Below, in pieces: positions 19,360-44,614 of a DNA stretch of 64,000 bases. The stretch's first letter is position 1. Every line of letters starts with the position of its first letter. The DNA lies in the NCBI RefSeq assembly GCF_964355755.1, contig NC_092670.1, positions 18,103,201 through 18,167,200 on the forward strand. The letters run 5' to 3'. The notes below the pieces were generated by a model. The model did not search any database. It saw only the letters and a program-made list of their open reading frames with translations, and was not told where the DNA came from. The position numbers and the translations under genes are program-made. This DNA is from Antedon mediterranea. Lineage: Eukaryota; Echinodermata; Crinoidea; Comatulida; Antedonidae.

Positions 19360-21031
19360 TTATAGATCTAGCAGAAACTGGTATACAGATTGCTCTATGC
19401 CTTCTTCTTGACATGCTTTTACAACATCGCTTATTCTGACGAAATCAGGCGTCGATGACATGCGTTTCCGCCACTTGTTGAAGGCGCCGAACACCTGGTT
19501 ACGTGCTGAAAACTTGTTTTCATTCTTAGCTTGAAAGATCTCTGCTTCTGTAACTCCGAGAGATCTGGCAAGACTTTCCCATTCACCAAGTTTTCCTGAT
19601 AATGTGTTCAAATGCTGTTCTGTAAATGTTTTGTTGGGGTTCTTAGCCTGAAATATTAATTAAAAATACTAATAATTATTTTACTATCAAACAAACATCT
19701 GAAAGCCAGTTTTTCTGGAATAAATAAAGAAACACTTAAAAGGGCAATCTGGTGAGTGGAGTGTCAATTTAATTTATAAAGCATAATATGATTGAAAATG
19801 TATCTTACATATTATGATCAACAAGGATTTCGAAATTGGGAGTACAGTATATTCAAAATGTTACTCACCTGTGGTAATGTTTCTTCGACAGTTGCAGCAT
19901 TATTGTCACCACTTCCACTTGGAAGTGGCCTGTCATCTGGCATCTATAAATAGAACAAAAAAACAAATTATTTTCAATTTGTACAACCTAAATATAAATG
20001 TACACTCAGTGAAAATATACAGTGTACATTTGAATGTTATGTGTGAACTTAGTTTAATAGAAGTGGCTTGAAAATTTGTGTACGTTTGGAATGATCATGC
20101 TTTTATTCTTTAAACTCCACTGGGGTAAAATGTAGTTATTGAAATTGATTTCTCGGAAACATACCTCGATAAAATCTTTGATTTCAACCCCCATTGTAAT
20201 AGACAAATCCTCCATAGTTTTCAGTATTTCTTGAATACTTGGCCGTAACATTCTATCTGCCTCCCAGCAAGCATGCAGCATATCCTTTAACGTAGAGGGT
20301 GTTTCTTCATCTAATGGATACATATTGTCTACCATCTCTGTATCCTGCGGTTTTTGACAAGTCCACATTTCCCAAATCACAACACCGTATGAGTATATGT
20401 CCGAACGCGGTGAAACTTTGATGTGGCTTGACCTTTCTTTAAAAAACTCATGATTTTCCGGAGCCATCCATGGTAACGACCCAGCCATGATAGTACTGAT
20501 TGTCCCATCAGTTATACGGGAAATTCCAAAGTCACAAAGTTTCAAATTATATTTATCAGTAATCAAAAAATTTGGAGATTTGATATCGCGGTGAATTATA
20601 TCATGTTCATGAAGATACTCTAATGCAAGGGTGCCTTGACGGGTCCATGTAAAAAATTTGTCATCCTCACGAGGTTGCTGCTGTTTTCGTTTATGGCTTA
20701 AATAATCTAGTAACGACCCCTTTGCCGCATATTCCATTATGATACAGTACCAAGGCTCTTGGGTAATGACACCTAAAATCTCTGTTATAAACTTTCTACC
20801 AATGTGTTTCTTTCCTTCATCATCTTTGATTCTTCTTAACGTAACAAGTTCAATTTCTTGGACACGGTTGAGGTGTTTAATCGCAACCGGAAAATTGTCT
20901 TTAGTTTTCCAAACACCTTTAAACACACTGCTTGTTCCACCTCTTCCAATACGTTTTCCAAATTCAATATCCTTGAATGGTATTTCCAAAAGCCCTGGAA
21001 ATGAATCCGTTACTGTTTCATTACCTGCCAT
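19360..21031 (-). CDS. TKL-type Ser/Thr kinase with C-terminal death domain, 3 exons
   Basis: Predicted cytosolic signalling kinase of 409 aa. Exons in transcript order: 21031-20165, 19943-19869, 19647-19360, all phase 0 with GT/AG. Exon 1 holds the whole kinase domain: glycine loop G29-R-G-G-T-S-S-V36, VAIK lysine 52, probable alpha-C Glu61, Met99 at the gatekeeper site, HRD 147-149 with Asn154, DFG 167-169, APE 190-192. All key catalytic residues are present, so it should be active. Exon 2 is a ~25-residue linker. Exon 3 (residues 315-409) is a death domain, recognisable from LGEWESLARSLGV and FNKWRKR. Kinase followed by death domain is the RIPK1 order, but the linker is too short for a RHIM and none is visible; IRAKs have the reverse order. 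I therefore leave it unnamed. A probable role in innate or death signalling is inference. A foldback element begins ~110 bp upstream. Confidence 0.88.
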
Positions 21032-21131
21032 TATTATTCATCAGAGAAGGGTATCTGCAAACAAAAACGTTTGCATATAAACATTTTTGAATAAATTAAT
21101 AGTAGGTTAGGCCCTACTACTAGTAGTAAGC

Positions 21132-43783: not shown

Positions 43784-44614
43784 GGGCCTGTTTCTGCTGC
43801 AACTGCTCAAAATACGGTATAAAAATACGGTATAAAATACGGTATTTTTTATACCGTATTTTTTAGTACCCCGTTTCTGCTAACAATACTTCTTGGGTGG
43901 TCGTGTTAAATTTCATCTTTTTTACCCAAATTGCCATTCATTTATTTGATCGATAATTAAAAGTCGCAATAAAGGAAGTTTTACGTCTCACTTTCAACAG
44001 CCTAGCCCCAGTGATAGATATGTTGTGAGAGCACAGAAAACATCGTAATGGGGACAATTAATTTGTTCCCTCCCCGAGTTATTGTATTTTGCAATGTTGT
44101 ACTGCTTTCGCAAGCTCTTCAGCTTTGAGTTTACTTGCTTTGGAGACAAGTCTATTCCATACTCCTGCTTTATTTTTTTAGAAATGTCTTTATAAATGTG
44201 GTTGTCCCTTTTATTACCTTTTAGTTGGCCAGACATTTTAGCTTCCCCACACAAATTTATTTAGTAAAACTGTGACGTCTTCGCTCCACATTTTCGCCGA
44301 ATATATATATATAGGCCTACACGTGTGTAAAACAGCTGACAGCGACAGAAAATAAAAACACGAATGTTGACCTTTTGTCATGTAAAAAAAAAATACGGTA
44401 TTTTTTATTGGCAGCAGAAACGGGTACAAAAAATACGGTATAAATTTGTAAATACCGTATTTTATCCACAAATTTTGTGGGGAAAATACGGTATACAAAA
44501 TACAGTATATTTTTTATGAGCGCAGTTTCTGCTGCCAAAAATATACCGTATATCTATGGTATTCAAAAAATACCGTATAATATACGGTATTTAGTTGGCA
44601 GCAGAAACAGGGCC
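43784..44614. mobile_element. PIF/Harbinger-like small element with ATACGGTAT arrays
   Basis: Terminal inverted repeats GGGCCTGTTTCTGCTGC (43784-43800) and GGCAGCAGAAACAGGGCC ending at 44614. Just inside both ends are clusters of ATACGGTAT and its complement ATACCGTAT (about 43811-43865 and 44393-44592), interleaved with further internal GTTTCTGCTGCC or GGCAGCAGAAAC motifs near 43863, 44408 and 44525. Between them a minus-strand Myb/SANT-like ORF lies at 43994-44291. I see no transposase gene and no clear 3-bp target duplication (TAT versus TTG), so class assignment rests on the Myb-type ORF and the GGG-starting ends. Confidence 0.65.
43994..44291 (-). pseudogene. Frameshifted Myb/SANT-like DNA-binding protein of the element
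   Basis: The domain begins at the ATG at 44291 (MWSEDVTVLLNKFV). That frame stops at 44238; the remainder continues in another frame from about 44254 to the stop at 43994 (EAKMSGQLKGNKRDNHIYKD, then GIDLSPKQVNSKLKSLRKQY, NNSGRE, PHYDVF). Joined conceptually, the order of Trp, LL, GN-R, Q--K-K-L---Y, SG and YD matches Myb/SANT-like domains of Harbinger accessory proteins and MSANTD-type host proteins. A one-base shift near 44255-44263 breaks it. The downstream 86-residue frame could still be translated alone, lacking the first helix. Confidence 0.65.

Follow-up and report, generated by a model that had tools for sequence, protein, structure and literature searches.

A young MITE family in the crinoid Antedon mediterranea, its PIF/Harbinger relatives and their subterminal site arrays

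The element and its family

The window, by which is meant the whole stretch of 64,000 nucleotides analysed here (Antedon mediterranea, contig NC_092670.1, positions 18,103,201 to 18,167,200), contains one complete non-autonomous element, a MITE. Its limits, as read from the window, are exact to the base (Table 1). The ends read GGGCCTGTTTCTGCTGC ... GCAGCAGAAACAGGGCC. These 17-bp inverted repeats are imperfect, with one mismatch between them, and they start with GG, where PIF/Harbinger elements have a short terminal repeat starting with G or A. Inside lie two arrays of short sites, written here as ATACSGTAT, and the remains of a Myb/SANT gene. The 3-bp duplication of this copy is degraded, and its two flanks no longer match.

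Table 1 Features of the element, in window positions.
Feature	Position	Strand	Remarks
Whole non-autonomous element (MITE), 831 bp	43784..44614	.	flanks TAT / TTG
Terminal inverted repeat, transposase-gene-side end, GGGCCTGTTTCTGCTGC	43784..43800	+	side from match to DDE-side end of the full element
Array of 4 ATACSGTAT sites, DDE-side end	43812..43859	.	same 4 sites in full-length elements
Myb/SANT (Myb_DNA-bind_4) gene remnant, 80 aa from ATG	43997..44236	-	without helix 1 and everything past the Myb domain
Out-of-frame first helix of the same Myb gene, MWSEDVTVLLNKFVWGS*	44238..44291	-	compare MWTEEVTVFTINLWGEAK in full-length elements
Array of 7 exact ATACSGTAT sites, Myb-side end	44393..44590	.	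internal tip-like GGCAGCAGAAAC copies included
Terminal inverted repeat, Myb-gene-side end	44598..44614	-	one mismatch to the other end

Elsewhere in the window, on the minus strand at 20054-21037, a 327-aa open frame with the motifs HRDIKSPN and DFGIS reads like a protein kinase. It is likely to be a host gene or else a processed copy.

A sequence-only reading of this DNA had described clusters of ATACGGTAT/ATACCGTAT in both sub-terminal regions, and these are borne out. The window has 11 exact sites, all within the element (4 left, 7 right), with 0.44 expected in the whole window and at most 3 found in any of 100 shuffles. On the Myb side, the family consensus and the full-length elements described below have 9 sites, against 7 exact ones in this copy. 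The same reading also had further motifs interspersed in both arrays. This holds for the right-hand side, where GGCAGCAGAAAC/GTTTCTGCTGCC occurs in the tip and also within the array, at 44411-44422 and about 44525, but not for the left, where there is the tip and only one degraded internal tip-like copy (GTTTCTGCTAAC).

The genome searched is the window's own, 354 Mb in 18 contigs. A 29-base pattern of the left end, with up to 3 mismatches allowed, matches at least 328 times, and the reversed control pattern 0 times. The top 40 scored copies are full length and 96-98% identical to the window copy, the best of them 97-98%; these identities are drawn from the copies closest to it, and the copy number is a lower bound. 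The family is young and recently multiplied. The concern that other copies might lack the ORF or the arrays did not materialise, as the fetched copies carry both.

Copies on C5, C9 and C8 with longer Myb frames were considered as intact genes and rejected. They are members of MITE subfamilies that are older (86-92% identity) and share the end-deleted structure. A copy at C1:30107821, with a DDE match 3.7 kb away, was likewise tried as a full element and is an ordinary complete MITE.

Several copies (C1:3.0 Mb and 10.0-10.9 Mb) have identical flanks, which means that some copies are one insertion spread by local duplication. This region of C1 holds recurrent segmental duplications, with which a single MITE insertion has travelled.

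An exact 3-bp duplication, as in PIF/Harbinger, is found at 25 of 34 distinct insertion sites. It consists almost only of A and T. PIF/Harbinger duplications are strictly TWA, while the sequence here is broader: 10 of the 25 are TAA or TTA, and the remainder are ATA, TAT, ATT, AAT, AAA and TAG. The context is C-WWW-G, with G after the triplet in 22 of 25 cases and C before it in 15. A duplication of 4-5 bp (WWWG or CWWWG) is less likely but conceivable, since the flanking C and G repeat the end bases of the element.

One MITE is nested, in opposite orientation, inside another copy (C1:17344480-17346220), so that its target is known. It reads C-TAT, element, TGT-G, compared to CTGTG in uninterrupted relatives; the outer copy has TAA at either side. 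Relatives have the duplications TTA (C8), TAT (C6) and TAA (C1:17.47 Mb and C2:37.70 Mb).

The Myb remnant and the full-length partners

The open frame had been read as a Myb/SANT-like gene with a frameshift, and both parts are confirmed. The minus-strand ORF at 43994-44260 matches the Pfam profile Myb_DNA-bind_4 with an E value of 5.4e-12, over profile positions 27-88 of 89, so a profile search did not show it to be unrelated to Myb/SANT. The first helix of the domain (MWSEDVTVLLN...) is not part of this ORF; it is encoded immediately upstream, in a different frame. The break is a property of the family. In a consensus built from 38 distinct copies, MWSEDVTVLLNKFVWGS runs into a stop; the remainder of the domain continues in a different frame and meets a further stop shortly past CPHYDVF. 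The frame is restored across the break in only one of these 38 copies, via a private deletion.

Counted per copy, the substitutions in this stub are 54 nonsynonymous, 11 synonymous and 4 stops, a nonsynonymous to synonymous ratio about twice the neutral expectation. As distinct variants there are 40, of which 11 are synonymous, and nonsynonymous changes are not depleted, in a sample biased towards copies close to the window copy. Since the changes are not biased to silent ones, the variation among copies gives no sign of coding constraint, or of purifying selection on the copies to encode the stub.

Genome searches with the Pfam profiles PF13837 and PF13359 find Myb and DDE_Tnp_4 genes 2-4 kb apart at many places. 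The pair of elements closest to the window's Myb is at C2:33680837-33687119 (about 6.3 kb) and C1:about 34271.1-34277.0 kb (about 5.9 kb), 95-97% identical to each other. Both have the tips of the MITE, and arrays of 9 sites at the Myb end and 4 at the transposase end, 13 in all. The earlier suggestion that full elements with a DDE transposase should be sought is thus answered with two, each with both genes.

The Myb domain of the full-length element is open from the first helix and matches PF13837 (Myb_DNA-bind_4) at 1.7e-16. The exon that follows has a coiled-coil-like stretch and repeats; in both copies it holds an expanded repeat of the type ARTSTPAPTSTPHYTSTP, the length of which differs between them. 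The second gene, convergent and split, matches PF13359 (DDE_Tnp_4), with an E value of 1.9e-19 for the exon that encodes the final acidic residue. In the window element there is only the broken remnant of the Myb/SANT gene, and the DDE gene is absent.

A near-identical transposase exon exists only in the C2 and C1 copies. In the C2 copy a K replaces the catalytic E, and the flanking duplications of the two copies do not match; their present activity is for these reasons only putative. At C8:17557062, a DDE fragment with 89% identity over 108 aa was tried as a further candidate and set aside, having neither arrays nor any match to the full elements at the nucleotide level.

Origin of the element

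Compared to the full-length elements, the MITE is 83% identical over 574 bp on the Myb side (through CPHY), 90% over 97 bp that match the C1 copy only, and 96% over 160 bp on the DDE side. It consists of both ends of a full-length element with the middle absent, which makes it an internal-deletion derivative. The earlier description of it as Harbinger-like stands, given that its tips and arrays are common to two full-length PIF/Harbinger elements in the genome. Almost certainly, then, the MITE is a PIF/Harbinger internal-deletion derivative, presumably moved in trans by proteins of intact Harbinger elements, with the Myb stub as a passenger. The MITE retains both ends, with tips and arrays. 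Of the first Myb exon it has a truncated stub with a frameshift, and the rest of Myb and the entire transposase gene are lost. The intact Myb-like protein would bind the pseudo-palindromic ATACSGTAT arrays and bring in the DDE transposase, which would act at the GGCCCTGTTTCTGCTG tips, and the MITE would have multiplied by cut-and-paste with proteins supplied in this way.

The arrays define the family, and they are conserved as functional sites would be. In an element of type A3 (C8:23.01 Mb), 67% identical overall, the array sites are held in register. Between the ends of the A2 and A3 elements, site columns are 92-94% conserved, against 68-70% elsewhere. Among the 13 aligned sites, 5 show no change, in 4 the central C alone has become G, 3 have some other single change, and 1 is deleted. 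The central change turns an ATACSGTAT site into its own reverse complement, and this set of changes would match the expected evolution of a site read as a palindrome.

That the arrays are simple-repeat noise in a low-complexity region is contradicted by the data and barely conceivable. The surroundings are indeed AT-rich, but the 11 sites in the window far exceed expectation, and the element ends have 13 sites with 0.01-0.02 expected, in a shuffle comparison which, here and for the families below, overstates significance somewhat as motifs were chosen from the sequences where they are counted. Noise would also not be in register across a family about 67% identical overall. It is nearly as hard to maintain that this is a Myb-only element, whose working 80-aa ORF binds ATACSGTAT and helps or represses Harbinger movement; we consider this very improbable. 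The ORF from the internal ATG is stop-free and frame-neutral in 29 of 38 copies, and it retains the putative recognition helix PKQVNSKLK. But in the consensus helix 1 sits in a different frame, and neither the second exon nor the sequence past CPHYDV is left; nonsynonymous variants are not depleted, and the copies are so young that an open frame is expected without selection. The sequence-only reading had proposed an undescribed minimal arrangement keeping just the DNA-binding gene. This has to be given up, given the broken and shortened frame of the consensus, the variation without purifying selection and the existence of full Myb and DDE elements.

The exact parentage of the deletion derivative is less simple. 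On the Myb side, the outer 200 bp of the MITE are 96-98% identical to the C2 element, compared to 70-89% per 50-bp stretch in the Myb exon. The Myb codons differ from those of the full-length elements at 31 third positions and 14 first and second positions (dN 0.12, dS about 1.1, dN/dS 0.11), an excess which points to a long period in which purifying selection acted on working elements, before the MITE arose. As the Myb segment is far more diverged than the ends, neither the C2 nor the C1 element is the direct parent, and a full-length parent with the A1-type (MITE-like) Myb was not found in the genome searched. The MITE is probably a mosaic, its ends and its Myb having different histories: either the ends were exchanged, or the true parent may have had these ends together with an older-diverged Myb. 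It is unlikely, if more plausible than the two alternatives above, that no recombination was involved and the MITE descends straight from a full-length element of A2 type, its ends kept by constraint alone. As such constraint would have it, conservation of the array sites exceeds background even in the A3 family. Yet outside the sites, too, the columns of the ends match A2 at 91-93%, around a Myb segment with the high dS just given. The low identity of A2 and A3 outside their sites means that constraint does not hold these columns. A mosaic or an end exchange would fit better, and the near-identical ends round an old-diverged Myb exon suggest end exchange between Harbinger lineages.

Such derivatives are not new. 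In rice, Ping is a two-gene element (Myb-like ORF1 and TPase; PMC2836001), and its two proteins mobilise the MITE mPing in trans. As in that pair, an internal-deletion derivative here shares its ends with a two-gene element, is present in many copies and has a 3-bp target duplication. Unlike mPing, which is not known to have a Myb remnant, the present element retains a Myb exon, though a broken one, along with large site arrays; its triplets are broader than TAA/TTA, and its mobilisation in trans is putative.

Zebrafish Harbinger3_DR and Harbinger3N_DR are likewise a two-gene element and its non-autonomous derivative, and the Myb-like protein of the former recognises a specific 9-bp subterminal motif (PMC9710019). 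This makes binding by Myb the natural reading of ATACSGTAT, for which the same role and site length are proposed: by analogy with the binding demonstrated in zebrafish, the arrays are probably binding sites for the intact Myb protein of the full-length type.

NuwaII, of the PHIS superfamily, has DDE and Myb/SANT genes and a 3-bp duplication in a palindromic C-NNN-G target (PMC4482050). The C..G context here recalls it. The NuwaII target is C-TNA-G; here almost any A/T triplet is used (TAA, TTA, ATA, TAT, ATT, AAT, and one TGT/TAT), and in 15 of 25 sites the middle is not TNA.

Array motifs and Myb domains across families

Other Harbinger families of this genome have arrays of their own. The elements at C6:14.94 Mb and C1:17.47 Mb have a very similar tip (GGGCCTGTTTCT...), and their transposase exons are 71-73% identical to those of the full-length partner. 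There is no ATACSGTAT site in their ends. The arrays instead consist of AAYCGRTT (9 times, C6) and AACSGTT/AACCGGTT (7 times, C1), with 0.1-0.2 expected for each. The elements at C2:37.70 Mb and C3:29.55 Mb have the tip GACCCCATTTACACTT and a GCCGGC array in common, and their Myb domains are 57% identical to each other. At C8:7.47 Mb the array motif is ATRCCGG. In families F, G and J, the ends of which lacked a confident location, no clear shared array was found.

Within the ATACSGTAT group, Myb identity is 62-75%; to the two families with altered motifs it is 47-53%. Going by these sequences, Harbinger families that share a tip or an architecture may have swapped their array motif in step with the Myb domain, which would make them a natural panel for the Myb/SANT recognition code. 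We hold this to be an evenly balanced proposition, the eight families compared being too few to separate motif-Myb matching from shared descent. The pattern is consistent with a Myb that reads the arrays and a transposase that reads the tip.

The MITE is a new family within the known PIF/Harbinger kind, and as a MITE it is ordinary. The comparison of arrays and Myb domains across families is the useful part, and more interesting than the MITE itself. If the proposed matching is true, these families would let the split of labour be read, with the tip for the transposase and the array for Myb. The matching of array to Myb is also directly testable, with a few small proteins and short DNA probes.
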